From Planctomycetaceae bacterium (lineage in GTDB: Bacteria > Planctomycetota > Planctomycetia > Planctomycetales > Planctomycetaceae): a stretch of DNA of 64,000 nt. This document shows positions 14,165 through 62,095 of this stretch, piece by piece. A program made the position numbers and the translations under genes. The DNA is taken from NCBI GenBank assembly GCA_028284485.1, contig JANQRQ010000248.1, positions 1 through 64,000 of the forward strand, given 5' to 3'. The notes under the pieces are model-generated. The model was not told the origin of the DNA, searched no databases, and was given only the letters and a program-made list of their open reading frames with translations. The number at the start of each line of letters is the position of its first letter. Positions within the stretch are counted from its first letter, which is position 1.

Positions 14165-15775
14165 TCAGGGAAGAATTACGTTGGCAACATCTTGCGCCGT
14201 CTGACTCAACCCTTGAATGGCAATGCCCAAGAGGACGACCGGCACGGAAACGGTGATGATATAAGCGCTCGCAATCGTAGGAACAGCGACGCGTTTCGAC
14301 TGCTCAGTCGCAGGTGCAATAAACATCGCCTTAAGGACGCGAATGTAATAGAACAGGCTAAACACGGTATTGAGTCCACCGATTGCCAATATGGCCCACA
14401 TCGACCAATGGACCGTTCCGGCTTTGAACAGAGAAGCAAAAATCACCAGCTTCGCGAAAAATCCGCCCAGCGGCGGCAAGCCGGTCAGACTGAACATAAA
14501 GATCGCCATACAGATGCAAAGCGCCGGGGCTTGTTGCGATAGTCCTGCATAGTCGCTGATTTCTTCGCTGAAAATTTCATTGCGAATGAGCGCCACAACC
14601 GCAAAAGCGCCCAGGTTCATGAACATATAAACGAACAGGTAATACAAAAGCCCTTCGATACAGCGTATGGCCTCTGTATGCACGTTAATGCCCGAATCCG
14701 CCGGTGCATTCAAAATGACCAATAGTGCCCCAACCGCCATCAGCATGTAACCGGCATGGGCGATCGTGGAATAAGCAAGCAGCCGTTTGATATTCGTTTG
14801 CGCATAGGCTGCCAGGTTTCCAAAAGTCGCGGTCACCGCAGCGATCACCCCGATGCCGATACCCAGCGAAACGTACATATTCGACAAACTAGCACCGCTT
14901 GGATCGCCAATTAATGCGAGGCAAAAGCGGACGAGCAATGCAAACGCCGCCCCTTTCGAAGCCACCGACAGAAATCCGGCCACTTCGGCTGAAGCCCCTT
15001 CGAAGGCATCCGGGCACCAAAAGTGAAAAGGCACAATCGATAATTTGAAAGCGACACCGACTAACACCATCAACGCTGCCAGCATCAAGGTTCGCACCGT
15101 CGCATCCGACATTCCGGCTTCGCCGGAAACGATCATATTGATCCGGTCGGCCATTTCCGGAAGGTTTGCGGTCCCCAATAGGCCCCCGATCAAACTCAGG
15201 CCATACAGCATGACCCCGGCGGCACCCGCGCCGTACACAACATACTTCAAGGCTGCTTCACTGCTGAGCTTGCGTCCCTTGAGAAACCCAACCATGGCGT
15301 AACTGGGTACACTGGTCATTTCGACCGCCAGAAACAGCATCAGCAAATGGTTGGCCGATGTCATCAGCATCATCCCGATGGTCGACCCCAACAGTAGCGC
15401 GTAGAAGTCGGGCCCATCTTCTTCATCGGGAATTCCGCTCAGCACGGTCAATGCGACCACAAATGTCAAAAACAGCGACAGGAACAAGCGGAAAAACGCC
15501 GTAAACTGATCGAAGACCAACAGTCCGGTGAAAAACGTCGACGAGTCCAGCACTTCGGTCCGCAGTTGATAAAACTGCGTTAACGAAAACATGAACGAGA
15601 CCAGTGCCCCGAGCAACGCCATCCAGTAGGTCGGGATAAACCGATCGGCGTTAAACAGTCGCACGAACAGCAGCAGCACAATCGTCACGCATAGCACCAA
15701 CTCGGGCGCAAACAACCACAACGACACCTGCGTTGTGTCATGCACGACTCGTTCGACTAGTGTATTAAAATCCAT
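14165..15775 (-). CDS. nuoN: NADH-quinone oxidoreductase subunit N
   Basis: Antiporter-like proton-pumping subunit of respiratory Complex I, 536 residues with about 14 transmembrane helices. The proton-antiporter core is visible: FKLSIVPFHFWCPDAFEGASAEVAGFLSVASKGAAFALLVR (TM7-8 region, with the conserved Lys) and IKRLLAYSTIAHAGYML. NuoN is recognised rather than NuoL/M by the CPDAFEGA version of the motif. It follows nuoM by 39 bases and is the last recognisable Complex I gene of this operon. Confidence 0.95.
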   Translation of the reverse strand: MDFNTLVERVVHDTTQVSLWLFAPELVLCVTIVLLLFVRLFNADRFIPTYWMALLGALVSFMFSLTQFYQLRTEVLDSSTFFTGLLVFDQFTAFFRLFLSLFLTFVVALTVLSGIPDEEDGPDFYALLLGSTIGMMLMTSANHLLMLFLAVEMTSVPSYAMVGFLKGRKLSSEAALKYVVYGAGAAGVMLYGLSLIGGLLGTANLPEMADRINMIVSGEAGMSDATVRTLMLAALMVLVGVAFKLSIVPFHFWCPDAFEGASAEVAGFLSVASKGAAFALLVRFCLALIGDPSGASLSNMYVSLGIGIGVIAAVTATFGNLAAYAQTNIKRLLAYSTIAHAGYMLMAVGALLVILNAPADSGINVHTEAIRCIEGLLYYLFVYMFMNLGAFAVVALIRNEIFSEEISDYAGLSQQAPALCICMAIFMFSLTGLPPLGGFFAKLVIFASLFKAGTVHWSMWAILAIGGLNTVFSLFYYIRVLKAMFIAPATEQSKRVAVPTIASAYIITVSVPVVLLGIAIQGLSQTAQDVANVILP

Positions 15776-15814
15776 TGCCAGTCAATTCAATTGGAGAACG
15801 CCTGCAGCTTCTGT

Positions 15815-17452
15815 TTACTTCAAAATGCCTGATATCGCTTCGGAAGTCGACTGAACGGCGGCTGCGTAGTTTTGATATCCCTGGTCAAGCGACTGAACCA
15901 AGTACGCCATCGACTCTCGCATGATGCCGAACATCGACTCCGGATAAATTCCCAGTATGATCGCAAACACCAAAAGAATGGCTCCGACGGTCATTTCTCG
16001 GTAATTCATCGGCACGATAGCTTCGGCGTGCGGGCCTTTGTATTCCGGGCCCAAATAAACCCGTTGAATCGTCCACAAGATATAGCCAGCGGTCAGAATC
16101 ACTCCGGAGGCGGCGATAATCGCCAGCACCGGGGAGTAGTTCCACGCGCTTAAGATGACAAATACTTCGCCGATAAATCCGCACAGTCCCGGTAGGCCCA
16201 AGCCGGCGAAGAAGATACCGGCCGCCAGTCCGGTGTAAACCGGCATCAGCCCGGCCAATCCGCCGAATTGGTTCAAATCGCGGTGATGCACCCGGTCATA
16301 AATCACGCCCACCATAAAGAACATGCCGGCCGAAGAAACGCCGTGTGCCAGCATTTGGAACATGGCTCCATTCATTCCCATCAACCAGTAGTCTCGTCCG
16401 ACCGCAGCACTATCTTCGCCGATCTTCCAGACGGCGATTCCCAAAAGCACATACCCCATGTGACTGACGGAACTGTAGGCCACCAGCCGTTTGAAGTCTG
16501 TTTGTGCCAAGGCGGCGAATGCTCCGTAAATGATGCTGACCGCACCAATGACGACCAAGGCATAGGCAGCGTATTGAGCACCGACCGGGCAGATCGGGAA
16601 GGCGATTCGCAGAATTCCGTATCCGCCCATCTTCAGCAGGACGCCGGCCAGAATCATACTAATCGGCGTTGGAGCCTCGACGTGCGCGTCGGGCAACCAG
16701 GTGTGGAATGGGAAAGTCGGAACCTTAATCGCAAACCCGATGAACAGAAGAATGAACGCCGTAATCTGCACGGTTCGATCAAACGTGATCCCAGCAACAT
16801 TCCCCTGCCCGATTTGTGTTAAAGCCAAAATGTCGAACGATGAACCGCCCGGAAGGTTTGAGCTTCCGAAGTAGAACATCAGCATGGCAATCAGCATGAG
16901 GATACTGCCGGCCAGCGTATACAGGAAGAACTTGATCGCGGCGTACTCTTTGCGGGGCCCGCCCCAAATTCCGATGAGGAAGTACATCGGCAGCAACATC
17001 ACTTCCCAGAACACATAGAAGAGGAAGAAATCGAGCGCCAGAAAGACTCCCAACATGCCGGTTTCCAGCAGCAGGTACAAAATCAGATAACCTTTGACCT
17101 GCTTTTCGATGCTCCACGATGCCAGCATTGCCAACATACAAATGAAACTCGTCAACAGCACCAGCGGCACGCTAATTCCGTCGTAGCCAAGTTGGTAATT
17201 GATATTCCAAGATTCAATCCACACATGGGAAACGCCACGAGTGCCGTCCTCTTGAACCGGTTGAATTCCGGGCTCGGCAGCGCTGAAATCGTTCAGCAAG
17301 AACAACGTGAGCATAAAGGTCACAACGGTGAAGACCAGCGCCGTCATCCGCATCGGCTCGACCGCCTTTTTATTGAAAAAGGCGAGAAACAACGCGCCGA
17401 GTGCCGGAGTGAAGATAATCGCGGTCAGCAGAAAGGTAGGGCTCAGGCTCAT
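15815..17452 (-). CDS. nuoM: NADH-quinone oxidoreductase subunit M
   Basis: Second antiporter-like subunit of the Complex I membrane arm; 545 residues and about 14 transmembrane helices. Diagnostic block: KVPTFPFHTWLPDAHVEAPTPISMILAGVLLKMGGYGILR; the DFKRLVAYSSVSHMGYVLLG segment follows. The VEAPTPISMILAG wording separates NuoM from NuoL (which has EGPTPVSALVHS in this organism). Placed 62 bases after nuoL and 39 before nuoN, same strand. Confidence 0.96.
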   Translation of the reverse strand: MSLSPTFLLTAIIFTPALGALFLAFFNKKAVEPMRMTALVFTVVTFMLTLFLLNDFSAAEPGIQPVQEDGTRGVSHVWIESWNINYQLGYDGISVPLVLLTSFICMLAMLASWSIEKQVKGYLILYLLLETGMLGVFLALDFFLFYVFWEVMLLPMYFLIGIWGGPRKEYAAIKFFLYTLAGSILMLIAMLMFYFGSSNLPGGSSFDILALTQIGQGNVAGITFDRTVQITAFILLFIGFAIKVPTFPFHTWLPDAHVEAPTPISMILAGVLLKMGGYGILRIAFPICPVGAQYAAYALVVIGAVSIIYGAFAALAQTDFKRLVAYSSVSHMGYVLLGIAVWKIGEDSAAVGRDYWLMGMNGAMFQMLAHGVSSAGMFFMVGVIYDRVHHRDLNQFGGLAGLMPVYTGLAAGIFFAGLGLPGLCGFIGEVFVILSAWNYSPVLAIIAASGVILTAGYILWTIQRVYLGPEYKGPHAEAIVPMNYREMTVGAILLVFAIILGIYPESMFGIMRESMAYLVQSLDQGYQNYAAAVQSTSEAISGILK

Positions 17453-17514
17453 GGTTTGTCAGTTTTCCTGCGACAGATCGATCGATGGGCCGAGGCAGTC
17501 GTCCACTTTATGGA

Positions 17515-19938
17515 TTAATACTTGGGAAAGAATGCAAACAACAAAACGAACAGCGTTAACACGCCAACGGCGATGAACATGATGTATTGGCGAAGCCGGC
17601 CGGTTTGAACGACTCGCAACGATCGGCCGATGCCAAATACAACATTTCCAACAAGATTGACCAGCCCGTCGACGATTCCCTCGTCGAAGAGGCGATCCCA
17701 TTTCGAAATATTAATGGCCGCACGGCAGGCACCATGCAAAATGCCGTCGAACACCACACGATCGGTGGCTGCACACCAGCCGGCCACAACGCGTGAAGGC
17801 CGCACGAACATGGCATCGTACAAGTCGTCGAACCGCCACTTTTCAACCAAAAACGTATACAGGCCGGTAAAGTGTCGCTGGATATCCGCCGGATTAAGGA
17901 CATGCGCCCCATACAGCAAATAGGCGATAATCGCCCCTGAAACTGCGGCGAACAATGCCATCACACCCGCTTCATGATGCACGTCGTGAATCAAGTCGTG
18001 CCCAGGTAACGACACCGCAGCCGCCTCGACTCCGGTTGCAACGCCCGCCGGTTCACTGTGGCTCAACATGGAATACAAAAAGCCCTGCTCGCCACCAATG
18101 GCACATCCGGCCGCAAACACCGACAGCACCAGCAACGGCCCCGTCATCACCCACGGCGATTCGTGCACGTGGTCGTACAATTCCTGATCGCGTGGCTCAC
18201 CGGCAAATGTATAAAACCACAACCGGAACATGTAAAACGCCGTAATGCCCGCTGTTACCAGCGGCACGATAAACAGCAAGAAATGTCCCGGGTTCAAATT
18301 GGTATGCGCCAAGGCTGTGGCGACGATGGCATCCTTCGAGTGGTAACCCGAAAAGGCAATCACCGTACCGGGAATCGCCAAACCCGCGATGGCGATCACT
18401 CCAATCAGCATCGTATAGGCCGTAATGGGCATTTTACGCCGCAGCCCGCCCATGCGCGGCATTTCCTGCTCGTGGTGACAACCGACGATCACACTCCCCG
18501 ACGCTAAGAACATCAGCGACTTAAAGAACGCGTGAGTCACCAAATGGAATAGGCCGGCCGCCCAGCCTCCGAGCCCGATGCCGAGCATCATGTAGCCCAG
18601 TTGGCTAATTGTCGAATAGGCAAGGACGCGTTTAATGTCGGTCGCCACAACGGCAATTGTCGCCGCCAGAAACAAAGTAATGCAGCCGATATAGGCAATC
18701 GTCAGCAGAACTTCCGGCGTAAATACCGGGTAAAAGCGGCCTGCCAAATAGACACCAGCCGCGACCATTGTGGCCGAGTGCACCAAAGCCGACACCGGTG
18801 TCGGCCCTTCCATTGCATCGGGCAACCACGTTTGCAACGGAAACTGTGCACTTTTGCCGATGCACCCACCGAAAACTCCCAGCCCGGCCACAATCAGCAA
18901 TGCGTACGGAATTGTCTTCGGTTCGTGCGTTTCGGGATCTTCCAGGCGATGACCATGGGCGTCGCGCAAATAAACGACGTCCTCTTCTTCGTTGACATCA
19001 ATCTGGCCGTCGTTGCCGCGGACCATTTCAAATAGCCCGGGCTTGGCGGCGTGCCCATCGGTCGATTCCTCCCCGACAAACCGAAACGTTCCGCAGTATG
19101 TCCACAGAATCATCAAGCCGATGATAAAGCCCCAGTCGCCGACGCGGTTAACGATGAACGCCTTGTTCGCCGCCGTGCTCGCCGACTTTCGTTCGACGTA
19201 GAACCCGATCAATAAATAACTGCAAATGCCGACCAGTTCCCAAAACACGAACACCTGGAAGATGTTCCCCGCCAGGACTAATCCGAGCATCGAAAAACAA
19301 AACAGCGACATGTACGAAAAGAACTTGTAGAAGCGACCGGGACGGTGAAAATGCCCACCATCGGCCGTGTGGACCTCGTGGTCGACATGGTCCTCGGTTA
19401 ATTCGTCGCTCATATATCCGATGGCAAACACATGGATACACGTCGCAATGAGCGTCACCATGGTGAACATCAAGAGCGTCAGGCTGTCGATGTACCAATC
19501 GAGCGTCACTTCTAAGCCGCCGAATGTTCCCAGCGAATACATCGTGCCGGAAAATGTCGTGGCAACGGCGTCGTGATGCACGCCAGATTCAGACTCTTCG
19601 CCCTCGGCATGTTCGGCATGCGCCGCCTCTTCAGCGTGCCCTTCGTCGCCATGACCTTCGTCACCGTGGCCCTCGCCACCATGTTCGCCTGCCGAAGCGT
19701 GATGCGAGTCGGTCCCCTTCAAGACGACCCAGTCGGTTGCGTTGCCCCATTTCATCAACGCCGTGAAACTGCACAAGAACCCGATCCCGATACAGGCAAC
19801 CGCGATATAAGCTGCGGTTCGGCTGACCCGGGGCCATAAGAAACCGCCGAAGATCTCCACTGCAAAGCCTGCAAGAGGCAGCAGCCAGGCGATCCCCAAC
19901 AGTAAAGCCAGTTCGTTGCCGATAGATTCCGTTGGCAT
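17515..19938 (-). CDS. nuoL: NADH-quinone oxidoreductase subunit L with His-rich loop
   Basis: Distal antiporter-like subunit of Complex I with the lateral helix. Core motif GKSAQFPLQTWLPDAMEGPTPVSALVHSATMVAAGVYL is intact and IKRVLAYSTISQLGYMMLG follows. At 807 residues it is much longer than the usual roughly 610-650. Two insertions account for much of this: residues 75-123 are very rich in His, Glu, Asp and Gly (repeated GHGDEGHGDEGHAEE type sequence), and about residues 290-345 form an acidic soluble loop (VRGNDGQIDVNEEEDVVYLRDAHGHRL). A further 200 residues at the C-terminus carry extra loops and a final transmembrane helix. The ATG is eight bases after the nuoK stop. Confidence 0.96.
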   Translation of the reverse strand: MPTESIGNELALLLGIAWLLPLAGFAVEIFGGFLWPRVSRTAAYIAVACIGIGFLCSFTALMKWGNATDWVVLKGTDSHHASAGEHGGEGHGDEGHGDEGHAEEAAHAEHAEGEESESGVHHDAVATTFSGTMYSLGTFGGLEVTLDWYIDSLTLLMFTMVTLIATCIHVFAIGYMSDELTEDHVDHEVHTADGGHFHRPGRFYKFFSYMSLFCFSMLGLVLAGNIFQVFVFWELVGICSYLLIGFYVERKSASTAANKAFIVNRVGDWGFIIGLMILWTYCGTFRFVGEESTDGHAAKPGLFEMVRGNDGQIDVNEEEDVVYLRDAHGHRLEDPETHEPKTIPYALLIVAGLGVFGGCIGKSAQFPLQTWLPDAMEGPTPVSALVHSATMVAAGVYLAGRFYPVFTPEVLLTIAYIGCITLFLAATIAVVATDIKRVLAYSTISQLGYMMLGIGLGGWAAGLFHLVTHAFFKSLMFLASGSVIVGCHHEQEMPRMGGLRRKMPITAYTMLIGVIAIAGLAIPGTVIAFSGYHSKDAIVATALAHTNLNPGHFLLFIVPLVTAGITAFYMFRLWFYTFAGEPRDQELYDHVHESPWVMTGPLLVLSVFAAGCAIGGEQGFLYSMLSHSEPAGVATGVEAAAVSLPGHDLIHDVHHEAGVMALFAAVSGAIIAYLLYGAHVLNPADIQRHFTGLYTFLVEKWRFDDLYDAMFVRPSRVVAGWCAATDRVVFDGILHGACRAAINISKWDRLFDEGIVDGLVNLVGNVVFGIGRSLRVVQTGRLRQYIMFIAVGVLTLFVLLFAFFPKY

Positions 19939-40346: not shown

Positions 40347-41630
40347 TTAGACCTTCGGTTCCCAGCCCGGCTCGTACTCGCGTTCCCAATAAGCCATTGC
40401 CTTATCGTCGCCGATAATGTGGCCATTCGCCGAATTGCAATTCAACGTGCGGCCCGTCCGATGGGCGATGTTGCCCAAATGGCATAACAGCGTGCTCTTG
40501 TGGCCTTTTTCGATTTCGGCGTTGAGTTCCAACGGAGTGTCGTTTCGAATCGCCGCGATAAAGTTGGCGATATGAATCGCATCGCCGCGCTGACCGCCCC
40601 CTTCTTTGATCACCTTATCTCGATCATCGTAAACCGTGTAGCCCCCGTTCCCGTCGAGAGCCATGGTTCCTCCTTCGCCATAAAACTTGACGAATCCCTC
40701 CCGGTGCCTGTTGCAGGAAAGTCCCTGCCACGTCAGTGTCTTTTCACCTTCGAACTCGAATGCCACAACATGCGTATCAGGAGTCTGCTGGTCATCATCA
40801 AAGCGATACCGTCCACCACTCGATGTCACACGAATGGGATAGTCGACACCTAATCCCCATCGACACAGGTCAATGGTGTGGACACCATTGTTGCCCAACT
40901 CACCGTTGCCCCAATGCCAGAACCAATGCCAGTTGTAATGCACGCGGTTGTCGTAATAGGGCACGCGCGGTGCCGGTCCTTGCCATAGTTCGTAGTCGAG
41001 ATTCTCCGGAACAGCCGCCGGCTTTCCGGTGCCGATCGGCCCGCGCGAATTTCCATACCAACTTCGAGAGCAATAAACACGACCAATCACACCGTCATGC
41101 AGTAACGCCATCGCCTCGTGAAATGCCGGTCCGCTGCGGCGCTGAGTTCCTAATTGAACGGCCCGGTTGTTCTTGCGTGCTGCTTCGACCATCAGCTCTC
41201 CCTCGCGCGGGTTATGGCTGCAAGGCTTTTCGACATACACATGCTTGCCCGCTGAACAACCCAAAATCGTCGCCGGTGCGTGCCAATGATTCGGTGCGGC
41301 ACAGACCAATGCATCCACCGACTCATCATCGAGAATGCGTCGGAAATCGCCGATCGGCTTTGGCGATTTGCCGACTTCCTTTTCGACGCTCGCGGCGGCG
41401 GCACTGGCGCGGTTCTCGTCGACGTCACACACGTATTTCACAATCACACCCGGTTGCTCCGCAAAGCCTTGTGCCAGCGCACGTCCCCGACTAAGCCCCA
41501 TCACTCCGACCGTGACCGTTTCCGACGCCGATTGCGCAGCCCGCAAGGCTCCGCCGGCCAATGCCAAACCGGCTGCGCTACCCATAGCGGTATTATTCAA
41601 GAATTGTCGGCGGTGAATCGATTGGGCCAT
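40347..41630 (-). CDS. Tat-exported Gfo/Idh/MocA-family oxidoreductase
   Basis: 427 residues. Signal with twin Arg (SIHRRQFLNNTAMGSAAGLALAGG) then a Rossmann domain beginning VGVMGLSRGRALAQGF and the family's EKPCSHNPREGELM motif (catalytic Lys in EKP). The C-terminal half carries the planctomycete form of the domain (YDNRVHYNWHWFWHWGNGELGNNGVHTIDLCRWGLG). Known relatives use a tightly bound NAD(P) outside the cytoplasm to act on sugars; the substrate is not predictable. Ends 39 bases before the sulfatase start, so the two are probably one transcription unit. Confidence 0.92.
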   Translation of the reverse strand: MAQSIHRRQFLNNTAMGSAAGLALAGGALRAAQSASETVTVGVMGLSRGRALAQGFAEQPGVIVKYVCDVDENRASAAAASVEKEVGKSPKPIGDFRRILDDESVDALVCAAPNHWHAPATILGCSAGKHVYVEKPCSHNPREGELMVEAARKNNRAVQLGTQRRSGPAFHEAMALLHDGVIGRVYCSRSWYGNSRGPIGTGKPAAVPENLDYELWQGPAPRVPYYDNRVHYNWHWFWHWGNGELGNNGVHTIDLCRWGLGVDYPIRVTSSGGRYRFDDDQQTPDTHVVAFEFEGEKTLTWQGLSCNRHREGFVKFYGEGGTMALDGNGGYTVYDDRDKVIKEGGGQRGDAIHIANFIAAIRNDTPLELNAEIEKGHKSTLLCHLGNIAHRTGRTLNCNSANGHIIGDDKAMAYWEREYEPGWEPKV

Positions 41631-56641: not shown

Positions 56642-57181
56642 ATGACGTTAAAATCACGAATAAATATTGACGATATCTATTTCGCGTTTTATTATTCACG
56701 ACACGTAAGCCGTGCCAAGGGCATTGAAAGCCTGCGAGACGACGAAAACGGACGGCCGAATTTGAGAACGGGACCGAAGCACGACCGAGCGGAATTGAAA
56801 TCAGCAGAAATGAGGAATCAACGAGAAACGGAACGAGAAATCAGCAAGGCAATCATCCGTTTCGAAAAAGAATATATGGGGCGCGGTCCGCTCGAAACGC
56901 GCTCCTACATTATCGATGATTTAGTCCTCGTGCGATTGAAAAACGTTTTGACACCTGCCGAAATGAAGCTGTCCGAATTGGAAGAAAGAGAACGGGGACG
57001 ATACTTAATAAAACAAATGAGGCAAGAATTGATTGAACGTGGTCGGCCACTACTCGATGCCGTTATCAAAGATATCTTGTCAGTCGAAGTCGTCAGCTTG
57101 CATACAGACATCAGCGCCAAGACTGGCGAAAGAATTATCGTTTTCACTTTAGAGCGACGGCCGAGTTTTGCCGAAGCGTAG
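56642..57181 (+). CDS. DUF2294-domain protein
   Basis: 179 residues from ATG 56642; a TTG 11 codons earlier is also open. Residues from about 68 onward are a standard DUF2294 domain: REISKAIIRFEKEYMGRGPLETRSYIIDDLVLVRLKNVLTPAEMKLSELEERERGRYLIKQMRQELIERGRPLLDAVIKDILSVEVVSLHTDISAKTGERIIVFTLE. The first 55 residues are polar and unlike the family, so the true start could be the ATG at 56810, although no good ribosome site precedes it. DUF2294 proteins are frequently encoded with DabA/DabB; here they are 650 bases apart on the same strand. Biochemical role unknown. Confidence 0.88.
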   Translation: MTLKSRINIDDIYFAFYYSRHVSRAKGIESLRDDENGRPNLRTGPKHDRAELKSAEMRNQRETEREISKAIIRFEKEYMGRGPLETRSYIIDDLVLVRLKNVLTPAEMKLSELEERERGRYLIKQMRQELIERGRPLLDAVIKDILSVEVVSLHTDISAKTGERIIVFTLERRPSFAEA

Positions 57182-57204: not shown

Positions 57205-57342
57205 ATCGGCCGGGGCTTGACGGTCCTTAAAGCTGTGCCTAGCATCTGGCCGATGAGAATTACGGCTGAGTTGAAGTTGCTTGGCGAATGTCAAACAGTC
57301 GGTTGTAACAGGTTTTCGTTGCATGGGATCAAACGCCCGTGC
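57205..57342 (+). ncRNA. Possible structured RNA 1 (ends in the first terminator)
   Basis: Between DUF2294 and the first terminator the sequence can fold into a long-range helix (ATCGGCC at 57205-57211 with GGCCGAT at 57248-57254) and a hairpin (GCATGGG at 57321-57327 with CCCGTGC at 57336-57342) that abuts the terminator stem. It could be the 3' part of the DUF2294 message, a small RNA, or a leader with a regulatory terminator. No known RNA family was recognised. Confidence 0.4.
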
Positions 57343-57387
57343 AAAAAGGCCGAGAGGTTGCGAGATGCGACCCCTCGGCCTTTTTTT
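57343..57387 (+). terminator. Intrinsic terminator after DUF2294
   Basis: AAAAAGGCCGAG (57343-57354) pairs with CTCGGCCTTTTT (57374-57385) for 12 base pairs, and seven T residues end at 57387. The A-run on the left makes it able to work in both directions. Confidence 0.9.
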
Positions 57388-57598: not shown

Positions 57599-57735
57599 CC
57601 CCGATATTTTCGGGGAGTTTAATCCCGTCGTAGACGCGATGCCGAACTCAAGCATCGGCATCGACATACGCAACGGGACTTCAACCACACATGAACACGC
57701 TGAAGCCGCGACGGTGGGGCTCTCCGTCCGGACAG
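57599..57735 (+). promoter_or_regulatory. Structured 5' leader RNA of dabBA (candidate attenuator or riboswitch)
   Basis: Three hairpins follow each other before a terminator: CCCCGA/TCGGGG at 57599-57615; a nested pair made of an outer TCCCGT (57623-57628) with ACGGGA (57673-57678) and an inner CGATGCCGA (57637-57645) with TCGGCATCG (57655-57663); and GACGG (57710-57714) with CCGTC (57724-57728). AAGCCG at 57703-57708 could also pair with CGGCTT of the terminator's 3' arm, an alternative fold of the kind used by attenuators. It matches no riboswitch class I can recall. The dabB start is 52 bases past the terminator. Confidence 0.55.
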
Positions 57736-57778
57736 GCCGGGTGTTGAACGCTAATGGCGTTCGCTTCCGGCTTTTTTT
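57736..57778 (+). terminator. Intrinsic terminator directly upstream of dabB
   Basis: GCCGG (57736-57740) and GAACGC (57746-57751) pair with GCGTTC (57757-57762) and CCGGC (57767-57771), with a small internal loop, followed by seven T residues (57772-57778). No gene ends just before it, so it most likely acts on the dabBA leader itself. Confidence 0.85.
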
Positions 57779-57829
57779 GTACTGACAATTACCGAACGAA
57801 ACCGAATTTCACCTTGGAGTTTTGAATTC

Positions 57830-59413
57830 ATGGAGACCGTCATTACCGTATTGCTGCTCCCAGTTCTCTTCCTGCTCGCTGGTGCGACTTTGCCAGCGCG
57901 TCTCGCAAACTCCAGGGCAAAGCAGTTGGGTCAGTTGGTGACAGGGTTAGCCGGAGTCGAGTGCATACTGGCATTCGGAATTGCCATCGCTTACGCAGTG
58001 TCGGGCGGCACACCTACTTCGATCGTGCTGGCCGAAGACACATTGGGCTCAGGAGCGGCGATTGGCATTTATTTTGACGGAGCGAGCAGCTTAATGCTCG
58101 CGCTTGTCAGCATTGTTGGTTTCGTTGTCGCTCGCTACTCGATCCGGTACCTCGATGGCGAAGCAAACCAGGGGCGTTACTTTCGTTGGCTTGGCTTCAC
58201 ACTCGGTGCCGTTTCGCTCATGGTGATCGCTGGAAACCTTGTGTTGTTTTTCGTGGCCTGGGTGATGACAAGCCTGGGCCTGCATCAATTGCTGATGCAT
58301 TACCACCACCGCGAGGCCGCACACCGAGCTGCCTGGACGAAGTTCGCAATCAGCCGCCTGGGCGATGCATTCCTCATTGCCGCCTTGGTGTTGATCTTCA
58401 AGACCTTTGGGACATTCGAGTTCGCCGAGTTGTTCTCTAAAGCGGAAGCTGCGGTGGTGGCTGGCCAAATCACCTCAAGCCACGTGGCCATCGGGTGGCT
58501 GTTGATCCTCGGGGCGGCGACGAAATCTGCTCAATTTCCGTTCCACACGTGGTTGCCAGACACGATGGAAACGCCAACGCCCGTTTCGGCACTCATGCAT
58601 GCAGGAATTGTCAACGCCGGCGGATACTTGATTATTCGTATGAGCCCACTCGTTGCGATGGCTCCCTCGGCGCTGATGGCATTGGCTGTTATCGGAACAG
58701 TGACCGCATGCTTTGCCGGTATCGTAATGATGACTCAGACCAGCATCAAAAGATCGCTGGCCTATTCAACGATCGCTCAAATGGGATTCATGATGTTGCA
58801 ATGTGGACTGGCAGCTTTTCCAGCAGCCATGTTGCATATTGTCGCTCATTCGCTGTACAAGGCTCACGCGTTCCTAAGCAGCGGCAGCGTAGTGTCCCAA
58901 TTCCCGGCGACCGCAGCAGCAGAATCTCGACCGGTCGGTTTGCGCCCCCGTTTCGCCTACCTGTTGGCAGCCATCGCGGCGACCGCGTCGTGTTGCGTTG
59001 CCGTCTCTGCGATGCTCGGCATTGATATTCACACAAAGCCCGGTGGCCTCATACTGACAGTCATCCTCGGTCTCGCGGTAACAACATGGGCCTGGCGATT
59101 GTTCTCCCTGGGTAAGCGGGTAACAACACTCGTCGCGCTTGTCGGAACTGCCGCACTCATTTTCGTCTACGGTGCCAGCTATCTCGCCGTCGATCGCTTG
59201 CTGGAAGCGCCCGTCGTCGACATGCCAACATCGATGCAGTTCGTACTCATCGGCATCGGAGTCGGTTTTTGCACTCTGTTCGGATTGCACACGATCGTTC
59301 TTGCGAAATTGCGGCCAACTTGGCTGGAACCGCTCCGAGTTCATGCATCGAACGGTTTCTACATCGATACCGTCTATCAACGTGTCTTAACTGGGTTCGC
59401 GAAACTGTCGTAA
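57830..59413 (+). CDS. dabB: DabB, membrane subunit of the energy-coupled inorganic-carbon pump
   Basis: 527 residues, about 14 transmembrane helices, of the NuoL/MrpA antiporter superfamily. The antiporter core is KSAQFPFHTWLPDTMETPTPVSALMHAGIVNAGGYLIIRM followed by SIKRSLAYSTIAQMGFMMLQCG. It is told from NuoL by its short length, the LHQLLMHYHHREAAHRAAWTKFAISRLGDAFLIAAL segment and the DabA gene next door. DabB is thought to carry cations that energise DabA's CO2 hydration. GGAG at 57816-57819 lies ten bases before the ATG. It is the first gene of the two-gene operon behind the structured leader. Confidence 0.94.
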   Translation: METVITVLLLPVLFLLAGATLPARLANSRAKQLGQLVTGLAGVECILAFGIAIAYAVSGGTPTSIVLAEDTLGSGAAIGIYFDGASSLMLALVSIVGFVVARYSIRYLDGEANQGRYFRWLGFTLGAVSLMVIAGNLVLFFVAWVMTSLGLHQLLMHYHHREAAHRAAWTKFAISRLGDAFLIAALVLIFKTFGTFEFAELFSKAEAAVVAGQITSSHVAIGWLLILGAATKSAQFPFHTWLPDTMETPTPVSALMHAGIVNAGGYLIIRMSPLVAMAPSALMALAVIGTVTACFAGIVMMTQTSIKRSLAYSTIAQMGFMMLQCGLAAFPAAMLHIVAHSLYKAHAFLSSGSVVSQFPATAAAESRPVGLRPRFAYLLAAIAATASCCVAVSAMLGIDIHTKPGGLILTVILGLAVTTWAWRLFSLGKRVTTLVALVGTAALIFVYGASYLAVDRLLEAPVVDMPTSMQFVLIGIGVGFCTLFGLHTIVLAKLRPTWLEPLRVHASNGFYIDTVYQRVLTGFAKLS

Positions 59414-59500: not shown

Positions 59501-62095
59501 ATGGCTACTGCGAACACAGTCCCACAACAAACGTCCCTGCCCAACAGTTTCCAACCGTCGGAGGCATCGCGCCTTCATCTCAACTTCGATCTCGATCACG
59601 TTGAATCAGTTTTGAAGCAAGTTCAGGAAAGAATTACTCCGGTTTGGCCTCTGAAGGATTATGTCGCGGTCAATCCTTATGCAGGTTTCGCGGACCAGAA
59701 GTTTCTTGCAGCGCGAAACAGCCTGCAAGCTGTGTCAGACATCGAGATGCTGATGCGTGTCGATTACTATCGTGAACAATTCGCGGCGGGCACACTACGT
59801 AAAGCCCACATCAATACCGCCGTTGATGAACTTGTCGCCGACAAAGTGGTGGGAGCCGAACGGATCGATGTCAATCAGGTTGTCGCGTTGCTTCAGGATG
59901 AATCGCACGCAGGTGCTTCTCTTGACGCGAACTCGGAGCAGGATCGAAAGTCAGTTCATCGAATTCGGACGTTTGTCGACATGTTGGATCATCACACCGG
60001 GTCCGATTGGTCTCGATTCATTTGCGAAGAGGTATCGAAGCATTGCGCTGCCCACTACGACCAAGGCCAGGCGATCTGGAAGAGTCCCTGGCAGGAATCG
60101 TCACTTTACGAGGCGTGGCGCCAAGCAGCGCAGTACGATCGCACGTTTGCCATTCTCGGCGTCGCTGGCTTACGCCAGCTGGTTTCCAGCCTGCCTCCGA
60201 ATCCGCATGCCGCAGTCGTGACGTTGCTACGGCAGCTTAAAGTGCCGACGAGTCTGTGGGCGGACTACTTGTATTGCGAAGCCCTTGCCACACCTGGCTG
60301 GAGCGCTTGGACGAATTATCACATTCAAATGGCAGAACGCCAGGGGGAACGCAACACCGACTTCGCCGGTTTGTTGGCAATGCGTTTAGCCTATTCGGCA
60401 ATACTGTGTCGGCAATGCGACTTTCATGTGGATTGGAATTCTTTCGCGGATGCTCACTATCGGGCTGGCGATCAGCCTTCCGAATCAAGCGACGAAGACG
60501 TCCTTCGATACGCCCTGTTAAGAGCCAGCGAAGTCGCTTTCAGAAATCAACTGCTGGATGACTTAGCGAATGACGACACCGAGTCCCCCGGCAAACCGAA
60601 TTGCGATCGAAGGTTGGCCCAACTCGTGTTTTGCATCGACGTTCGCTCGGAACGAATTCGCCGGAACTTGGAGGCGGTTGCCGGCAACATCGAGACATTT
60701 GGATTTGCGGGCTTCTTCGGGCTACCGATCGAATTCGTCCGACTCGGCGAAAATCAGGGTTCCTCGCAAGTTCCCGTCTTAATCTCACCACAGTTTACGG
60801 TCTATGAAGAATTAACCGGTGTCGACGCAAACCATGCTGAAACAGCGATTGAACGACGATCGACACGCCGCTTTTTGCGAAAAGCCTGGAAGGACTTTCA
60901 GAATTCCGCCGCGAGTTGTTTCGCTTTTGTGGAAACGACAGGACTGTTTTATGCCATTAAACTGTTTGCACAATCGGCCGGCTTCGGACAAACCCGCCCC
61001 ACCCAATTCGACGGCATCGAGGAACCGCTACGGCAGCGTCTCGCGCCGGTGTTACCAGTCGGCCACCATCAAGATCTCAGCCTCTCCGAACAGGCAGACA
61101 TGGCGGAATCGATCTTGCGCGGTATCGGCATCGTTGACGGCTTCGCTCGCTCGGTTGTCCTCTGCGGGCATGCCAGCCGGACAGAAAACAATCCACTACA
61201 AGCCGGACTTGATTGCGGCGCGTGCGGCGGCCACTCGGGCGAGGTGAACTCACGTTTGGCAGCCAAGCTGCTGAATCATCCGAGCATTCGCCAGGCTCTC
61301 AGGCGACGAGGCATTGAAATTCCAGATGATACGCACTTCGTCGCAGCGCTTCACAACACAACGACCGACGAACTGGAGTTCTTCGACACATACGACGTAC
61401 CGGCATCGCATCGACTTGATTTGCTGCATCTGCAATCGATTGCCGATTCGGCGTCGCAAAGGACTCGCAGCGAGCGGTTGGCCCAGCTTCCCGGCCCCAA
61501 TGCTGACGATTTGTTTCGGCGTAGCTCGGACTGGTCGGAAGTTCGCCCCGAATGGGGACTGGCGGGTAATGCCGCATTCGTCGCTGCACCACGCACGTTG
61601 ACGGAATCTGTTTCGCTCGAAGGTCGATCGTTTTTGCACAGCTACGATTATCGCAACGATCCAGAGTTCGCTGTCCTGGAACAGATCATGACCGCTCCCT
61701 TGGTCGTCGCACACTTGATCAATATGCAGTACTACGCATCAACGGTCGAACCGTCGAAATTCGGCAGTGGAACCAAGACAGTCCATAACGTCGTTGGCCG
61801 ATTCGGACTGTTCTCGGGCAACGGTGGCGACCTGATGACAGGCCTCCCCTGGCAATCCATTCACGATGGACAGGATTTCCAGCACCATCCACTTCGGCTG
61901 CTTGCCATTATTGCGGCGCCGCGCGAGGCCATTCAAAACATTATCGAAAACCAAGAATTGCTAGCAAACCTATTGGCGAACGGATGGCTGCAACTTGTCG
62001 CCGTCGAAGACAACAAATACTACCGCCTCACCGAGCAGCTTACATGGGACGAATTGCAGTCCAGTGCATTGTCAGCGACGGCATGCATCGCATGA
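59501..62095 (+). CDS. dabA: DabA (DUF2309/UPF0753), zinc-dependent carbonic-anhydrase-like subunit
   Basis: 864 residues, cytoplasmic, peripheral on DabB. DabA hydrates CO2 to bicarbonate in a one-way, energy-coupled manner, concentrating inorganic carbon. The four zinc/active-site residues known from Halothiobacillus DabA are all in place: C378 and D380 in LVFCIDVRSE, H557 in VLCGHASRTENNP and C572 in GLDCGACGGH; the 15-residue distance between the last two is the same. A start at ATG 59501 with AAAGGA ten bases upstream is clear; 87 bases separate it from dabB. In a presumably heterotrophic planctomycete the bicarbonate would feed carboxylases rather than CO2 fixation (inference). Confidence 0.95.
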   Translation: MATANTVPQQTSLPNSFQPSEASRLHLNFDLDHVESVLKQVQERITPVWPLKDYVAVNPYAGFADQKFLAARNSLQAVSDIEMLMRVDYYREQFAAGTLRKAHINTAVDELVADKVVGAERIDVNQVVALLQDESHAGASLDANSEQDRKSVHRIRTFVDMLDHHTGSDWSRFICEEVSKHCAAHYDQGQAIWKSPWQESSLYEAWRQAAQYDRTFAILGVAGLRQLVSSLPPNPHAAVVTLLRQLKVPTSLWADYLYCEALATPGWSAWTNYHIQMAERQGERNTDFAGLLAMRLAYSAILCRQCDFHVDWNSFADAHYRAGDQPSESSDEDVLRYALLRASEVAFRNQLLDDLANDDTESPGKPNCDRRLAQLVFCIDVRSERIRRNLEAVAGNIETFGFAGFFGLPIEFVRLGENQGSSQVPVLISPQFTVYEELTGVDANHAETAIERRSTRRFLRKAWKDFQNSAASCFAFVETTGLFYAIKLFAQSAGFGQTRPTQFDGIEEPLRQRLAPVLPVGHHQDLSLSEQADMAESILRGIGIVDGFARSVVLCGHASRTENNPLQAGLDCGACGGHSGEVNSRLAAKLLNHPSIRQALRRRGIEIPDDTHFVAALHNTTTDELEFFDTYDVPASHRLDLLHLQSIADSASQRTRSERLAQLPGPNADDLFRRSSDWSEVRPEWGLAGNAAFVAAPRTLTESVSLEGRSFLHSYDYRNDPEFAVLEQIMTAPLVVAHLINMQYYASTVEPSKFGSGTKTVHNVVGRFGLFSGNGGDLMTGLPWQSIHDGQDFQHHPLRLLAIIAAPREAIQNIIENQELLANLLANGWLQLVAVEDNKYYRLTEQLTWDELQSSALSATACIA

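Follow-up and report, generated by a model that had tools for sequence, protein, structure and literature searches.

A conserved leader RNA with two probable hairpin switches in series between mpsC and the dabBA carbon-pump genes of planctomycetes

Within a 64,000-nt stretch of DNA from a Planctomycetaceae bacterium (hereafter the window, meaning the whole of the stretch that was analysed), the gene mpsC and the dabBA inorganic-carbon pump genes are separated by a conserved, previously undescribed leader RNA that holds two probable stop-or-go hairpin switches in series. It is very likely that a conserved attenuator acts in cis on dabBA from this region, and we hold with moderate confidence to the fuller reading in which the mpsC-dabB intergenic region is the dabBA 5' leader, made up of two serial transcription attenuators that are worked by a trans-acting factor. 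Little has been learned of how bacteria sense CO2 or bicarbonate and adjust the DAB (MpsAB) pump to them, and the literature searched revealed no RNA-based control of it. Related leaders before planctomycete genes of CO2 and bicarbonate metabolism point to an unrecognised control of carbon uptake, and tandem attenuators common to DabBA, carbonic-anhydrase and SulP genes provide a direct handle on the signal.

The locus and its promoter

Reading along the + strand, mpsC is followed by a 648-nt gap and then by dabB and dabA (Table 1). A DabA protein (PF10070) adjoining a NuoL-like DabB identifies the locus as a DabBA inorganic-carbon pump, and the Pirellulaceae are the closest named relatives of the window's DabB. 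A complex I type cluster of NuoL/NuoM-like genes is also found in the window, at 14726-19341 on the - strand.

Table 1. Features of the mpsC-dabBA region, in window coordinates
Feature	Position	Strand	Basis
mpsC (DUF2294/PF10057), 123 aa, HTD subtype	56810..57181	+	Pfam E 1e-34
Sigma-70-type promoter, TTGACG-17-TAGCAT	57217..57245	+	sequence match; aligned relatives
RNA1, whole: stem P1, hairpin P2, terminator T1	57264..57387	+	fold and covariation
RNA1 stem P1	57264..57300	+	both-side changes in 7/9 pairs
RNA1 predicted antiterminator, 5' strand GGUUUU	57311..57316	+	complementary to T1 5' arm AAGGCC, 57346-57351
RNA1 hairpin P2, conserved loop (GGAU...A[C/U]G)	57319..57344	+	covariation, 17 sequences
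RNA1 intrinsic terminator T1, seven T at 57381-57387	57346..57387	+	-26.5 kcal/mol; covariation
Spacer hairpins, lineage-specific	57599..57678	+	z -6.3; absent where spacer short
RNA2, whole: hairpin P1' and terminator T2	57698..57778	+	fold and covariation
RNA2 hairpin P1' (CCG-n-GACGG...CCGUC-CGG)	57698..57731	+	covariation
RNA2 intrinsic terminator T2, hairpin to 57772, seven T at 57772-57778	57735..57778	+	energy scan; conserved relatives
dabB, NuoL-like subunit of inorganic-carbon pump	57830..59413	+	PF00361/PF00662
dabA (PF10070)	59501..62095	+	Pfam E 1e-259

A sigma-70-type promoter sits between mpsC and the first terminator, T1. Its TTGAC and TA are unchanged in all 11 aligned sequences, the form in relatives reads CTTGAC-N6-TCAAG-N6-TAGANT, and in most dabB loci the start of the -35 box and the poly-T of T1 lie 163-168 nt apart. 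Scanning the window from T1 to dabB uncovered no promoter-like site; by computation, the region has the layout of an attenuation leader, with a promoter, a terminator-bearing leader, a first gene and no promoter in between. Measured against shuffled sequence, the fold from the start region of the RNA1 promoter through T1 has a z of -5.7 and that of 57599-57830 a z of -4.3. No conserved short ORF was found when a leader peptide was sought in RNA1, and a BLAST search of the leader against its own genome returned no second copy. In most relatives an inverted repeat, CTTGAC-N6-TCAAG, overlaps the -35 box (57216-57233 and equivalents) and is imperfect in the window; a DNA-binding regulator may use this repeat as its operator.

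Two covarying RNAs before dabB

The loci compared are those of DabB relatives found in 101 family genomes and on genome contigs. In the RNA1 alignment, 95.7% of cells pair, and 25 of the 34 pairs have changed on both sides with pairing kept, whereas 500 shuffles give 9.6 +/- 2.1 and a control with slid partner strands no more than 9; P2 by itself has compensatory changes in nine of nine pairs across 17 sequences. The GGA in the loop of P2 was rejected as a site of the CsrA type, since its GG covaries (GAG/CUC in L046 and L070). Both terminators precede dabB in eight close relatives (L044, L045, L046, L047, L050, L010, L051 and L070) as well as in L184 and L185, which belong to two other families, and two loci (L048 and L049) have T1 only, with many loci being related, such that the locus counts are not independent. 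In L049, about 40 nt lie between the end of T1 and the start of dabB.

The second element, RNA2, shows covariation in 13 of 26 pairs, against 5.7 +/- 1.7 in shuffles, and the same structure folds when it is realigned with L184 and L185. Its terminator, T2, was missed by a simple terminator scan and detected by an energy-based scan, at about -22 kcal/mol, and is kept in the eight close relatives plus L184 and L185. The GCU that flanks P1' (57699-57701) can pair with the T2 5' arm, an outer helix that amounts to only 3 bp in most members and fails in some (L045, L184). The covariance model of RNA2 (R2) picks up the P2-T1 half of RNA1 as well, and RNA2 accordingly resembles a cut-down copy of the RNA1 module. 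A weak R2 match of 19.9 bits occurs elsewhere in the window, at 40416-40490 on the - strand. What we took to be a guanidine-III-like resemblance in the GGACAAG of RNA2 was rejected, as the loop is not conserved and Rfam gave no match.

These boundaries revise the first-pass annotation of this DNA, which had described 57599-57778 as one leader of three hairpins and a terminator that controls dabBA by attenuation. The three hairpins are present, at 57599-57615, about 57623-57678 and 57706-57731, and the terminator is as described, with a hairpin at 57735-57772 and a run of seven T that ends 52 nt before the dabB ATG; it is real and conserved. Correct, too, was the remark that no gene ends just upstream that would need T2, for mpsC stops at 57181 and T1 intervenes. 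The unit itself does not hold: only the last of the three hairpins belongs to a conserved element, RNA2, and the first two lie outside it because the spacers of L050 and L047, with a T1-to-RNA2 distance of only about 35-60 nt, have no room for them. Conservation and covariation upstream of other dabB genes, the check that it named, are found for RNA1 and RNA2, and not for 57599-57778 as a whole. That annotation did not include T1, the upstream promoter or RNA1, which is the second and stronger leader RNA.

It had further suggested that the leader switches through an alternative pairing of AAGCCG (57703-57708) with the 3' arm of T2. The complementarity is there, the six bases being pairable in 88.7% of cells, but the pairing shows no compensatory change, and a switch is disfavoured because AAGCCG is part of the covarying lower stem of P1'. 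With the first two hairpins also missing in relatives, a single leader at 57599-57778 that works in this way has scarcely any probability. The broader claim, that dabBA is under transcription attenuation, is well supported by conservation, by compensatory changes, by the lack of an intervening promoter-like site and by the same arrangement in relatives.

Two terminators in succession might also have a mundane origin, T1 ending mpsC and T2 insulating a dabB that has its own promoter, with no regulation involved, and T1 does lie about 190-215 nt past the mpsC stop in most loci. This explanation is highly improbable, given that a promoter is found between mpsC and T1 and no promoter-like site past T1, that hairpins beyond the terminators covary and the tandem design is kept, and that DUF2294 genes of the HHD type (see below) are without such a terminator.

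A predicted antiterminator and a proposed mechanism for read-through

When RNA1 is folded only as far as the T1 5' arm, that is, before the 3' arm has been made, the 5' arm (AAGGCC) is predicted to be paired upstream in 17 of 17 members, and its partner in nearly all is the sequence just 5' of P2 (mostly GGUUUU), such that the pairing extends P2. The mean antiterminator pairing probability over the 17 RNA1s is 0.87, compared to 0.56 with the linker shuffled, and in 12 members at most 10 of 200 linker shuffles reach the native value; for the window's GGUUUU-AAGGCC the mean is 0.90, against 0.60 with shuffled linkers, 3 of 200 of which are as high. Eighty-three percent of cells in this helix are paired, a value not above shuffles, and there are no compensatory changes, so that the support for the antiterminator comes from complementarity and position and not from covariation. 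Alternative pairings of GGUUUU are predicted when the full window leader is folded. The predicted layout of RNA1 is that of a classic attenuator: an early antiterminator would be displaced by a terminator that competes through strand exchange.

A plausible sequence of events is as follows. Transcription of dabBA would start at the promoter at 57217-57245, and RNA1 would fold P1 and then P2. The emerging 5' arm of T1 would first pair with GGUUUU and so lengthen P2 at its outer end, and T1 would form once this extension is given up. A polymerase that passed T1 would then meet RNA2, with its reduced hairpin-plus-terminator, ahead of dabB. Read-through is presumably decided by a trans-acting factor, the likeliest of which would be MpsC, encoded immediately upstream and binding hairpins of the P2/P1' type; inorganic-carbon status is the probable signal, and the pump would be made only on need.

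Distribution and target genes

R1, a covariance model of RNA1, was run on the window's own genome and on 170 family and 398 class genomes, with matches below about 40 bits being mostly plain strong terminators. The genome itself has one true site, a reverse-strand match having been rejected as a palindromic terminator, and further strong sites occur in the family and class genomes; the match at L190 proved to be false. All but two of the clear sites come immediately after mpsC. At G003:C40 the order is RNA1-dabB-dabA, with no mpsC within 9 kb and the genome's only mpsC on another contig, a split that fits a diffusible factor. At L191, where the R1 score is weak, the leader is followed by a carbonic-anhydrase-like gene and then by mpsC.

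The genes downstream of RNA1 relatives are dabB, carbonic-anhydrase-like genes, and Usp plus a SulP transporter. Carbonic-anhydrase-like genes come next in L130 and L131 (weak by Pfam) and in L186, L187 and L189 (Pro_CA, E 1e-7 to 7e-21), a SulP gene following the carbonic anhydrase in L186 and L189, and Usp plus SulP come next in L132, L134 and L192, and also in L175. The next gene is without apparent carbon link in L133 and without a Pfam match in L188. L130 and L131 share the order mpsC, RNA1, a 39-aa ORF, RNA2 and a carbonic-anhydrase-like gene. A search of the 170 family genomes with R2 gave only weak matches beyond the dabB loci and one mpsC/carbonic-anhydrase-like locus.

This distribution bears on whether RNA1 could be a free-standing gene for a trans-acting small RNA, with dabB transcribed separately. 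The unit from promoter to terminator, about 140 nt, would suit such a gene, but nearly all clear loci have a same-strand carbon gene after RNA1, the gap from terminator to start codon is sometimes only about 17-50 nt, and RNA2 is without a promoter; we give the small RNA gene very little credence and retain a cis-acting leader.

Several features of these loci fall outside the two RNAs. A conserved ORF of about 39-46 aa that ends in GDPTxIYLA follows RNA1 at L048:2437-2576 (+) and, between RNA1 and RNA2 on the minus strand, at L130 and L131; a similar ORF end (GSLADIHLA) follows T1 at L213, and Pfam found no match for ORFs of the GDPTxIYLA type. In genus g56, the gene just before mpsC encodes a small, secreted-looking protein with a PLRC end and has an extra hairpin-terminator leader in front of it (L173:1024-1161 (+), L174:4083-4219 (-) and L175:3724-3839 (-)), so that an attenuator of this kind may act on mpsC as well. 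In distant planctomycetes, mpsC and its terminator are followed by PEPCK-like genes (L198; L199 by eye), by a DUF4914 gene (L201) or by a SulP locus (L200), and in an AT-rich planctomycete (L227) near-identical tandem hairpin-terminator units, GGAAGACTACGGCAAAGACCCAT...GGGTTGTTGC plus terminator, come after mpsC; these divergent leaders (L198-L201 and L227) are grouped by their position after mpsC and are only candidate homologues of RNA1.

Association with mpsC and the nature of the effector

The leader follows mpsC more closely than it follows dabB. On genome contigs, 75 dabB loci had 800 nt or more of preceding sequence; mpsC lies upstream in nine of them, exactly the nine that have RNA1, and RNA1 was found in none of the 60 loci searched among the 66 without mpsC, where the best score was 26.9 bits. 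This association does not reflect DabB closeness alone, because L073 (55% DabB identity) lacks both mpsC and RNA1 and L070 (47%) has both. The RNA leader is not general to dabB, and is confined to loci with mpsC apart from one case in which the genome carries mpsC at another place. The class scan agrees in that PF10057 is present in 127 of 398 genomes and R1 matches of at least 45 bits occur only in genomes with PF10057.

DUF2294 proteins were split by a His motif into an HTD type, to which the window's MpsC belongs, and an HHD type. Of 40 loci with an HTD-type gene, some of which were found through RNA1, 33 have a same-strand terminator no more than 420 nt downstream (11 of the 16 found via PF10057 alone) and 2 have one on the opposite strand; for HHD-type genes the downstream terminator is found in 1 of 25. 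The HHD-type motif reads GRGPK...SLHHDIS in L211, L215, L219 and similar loci, which have no downstream terminators, and in HHD-type loci another PF10057 gene, in divergent orientation, is often found at a distance of 0.7-1.3 kb.

The AF2 model of MpsC (pLDDT 93.8) consists of a helix, two strands, two helices and two strands. A PDB sequence search with MpsC came back empty, and fold searches gave nothing significant (Foldseek best E 0.034; VIA Z <=7.2, to unrelated proteins). The model therefore speaks neither for nor against RNA binding. We put forward MpsC as the effector of the attenuators tentatively, as a reading that could well prove wrong.

A new riboswitch class would be a different solution: RNA1 and RNA2 would themselves bind bicarbonate or another ligand linked to carbon (metabolite, nucleotide or ion) and change over between antiterminator and terminator, and mpsC would be just a co-located pathway gene. 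The covarying, structured RNA before a terminator, promoter-proximal and in cis to the transport and enzyme genes of one pathway, is what such a class would look like. We nevertheless consider it unlikely, since there are few conserved unpaired nucleotides of the kind that form a ligand pocket, RNA1 is tied more tightly to mpsC than to any one target gene, and RNA2 and the SulP and carbonic-anhydrase leaders keep little beyond a hairpin plus terminator. The observations suit a protein effector, MpsC, no less than a riboswitch. The first-pass recognition of no known riboswitch class stands: an Rfam search at gathering scores of the window and 18 related loci gave no match, and one at E up to 10 gave chance matches only.

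More doubtful than the effector role itself is its extension to a family, in which HTD-type MpsC (DUF2294), as the first of a new group of antitermination proteins that bind RNA, would sense inorganic-carbon status and act via P2-type hairpins in the tandem attenuators of dabBA, carbonic-anhydrase, SulP and perhaps PEPCK operons of Planctomycetota. If true, such a role would account for the presence of MpsC beside bicarbonate transporters. The mpsC link in any case offers a testable role for a protein family that is without one; a full-text literature search found no informative paper on DUF2294.

Comparison with known systems

Protein-dependent antitermination and attenuation leaders include PyrR-pyr, LicT/SacY-RAT, ANTAR, TRAP and HutP. 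In such leaders a hairpin can be extended at the expense of the terminator 5' arm, attenuators may be arranged in tandem, as in pyr, and the regulator gene can be adjacent. The planctomycete leader resembles them in its predicted layout, as the hairpin extension predicted for RNA1 overlaps the terminator 5' arm, the probable attenuators are in tandem and mpsC adjoins them. It differs from the PyrR, LicT, ANTAR, TRAP and HutP systems in its protein, for Pfam assigns MpsC only PF10057 and no solved structure matches significantly. ANTAR leaders, which have two small hairpins with six-base loops bearing A at position 1 and G at position 4, are not matched here: the P2 loop is 8 nt long (GGG-AUCAAACG-CCC), P1 is an interrupted long stem, no ANTAR-type hexaloops are present and no Rfam family was hit. 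The leader likewise gave no Rfam T-box match.

Transcriptional metabolite and ion riboswitches share with RNA1 a cis-acting leader and an aptamer-like P1-P2 upstream of a terminator and, in RNA1, a predicted antiterminator, but none of the known classes in Rfam is matched, and the full-text literature search found no bicarbonate or CO2 riboswitch. The Rhodopirellula-1 RNA motif, a candidate cis-regulatory RNA of Proteobacteria and Planctomycetes with no Rfam number (PMC2864571), is like RNA1 and RNA2 a planctomycete candidate cis RNA; it is set apart from them by description only, and identity is possible.

The nearest parallel in gene content is the MpsAB system of Staphylococcus aureus, a DabBA-type bicarbonate system in which mpsC follows mpsAB behind a weak terminator and mpsA expression is lower at 5% CO2 (PMC6689103). 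MpsC was earlier set aside as non-functional for the S. aureus transporter: deletion of mpsC leaves growth unchanged, and in E. coli mpsAB is functional when mpsC is absent (PMC6689103), results that count against MpsC as an effector. Outside staphylococci, mpsC was reported not to be co-located with mpsAB (PMC6689103), and the planctomycete mpsC-dabBA loci are a counter-example. Both arrangements place mpsC beside a bicarbonate pump with a terminator in between; unlike the S. aureus gene, which lies downstream, planctomycete mpsC precedes dabBA, with the attenuators between them.
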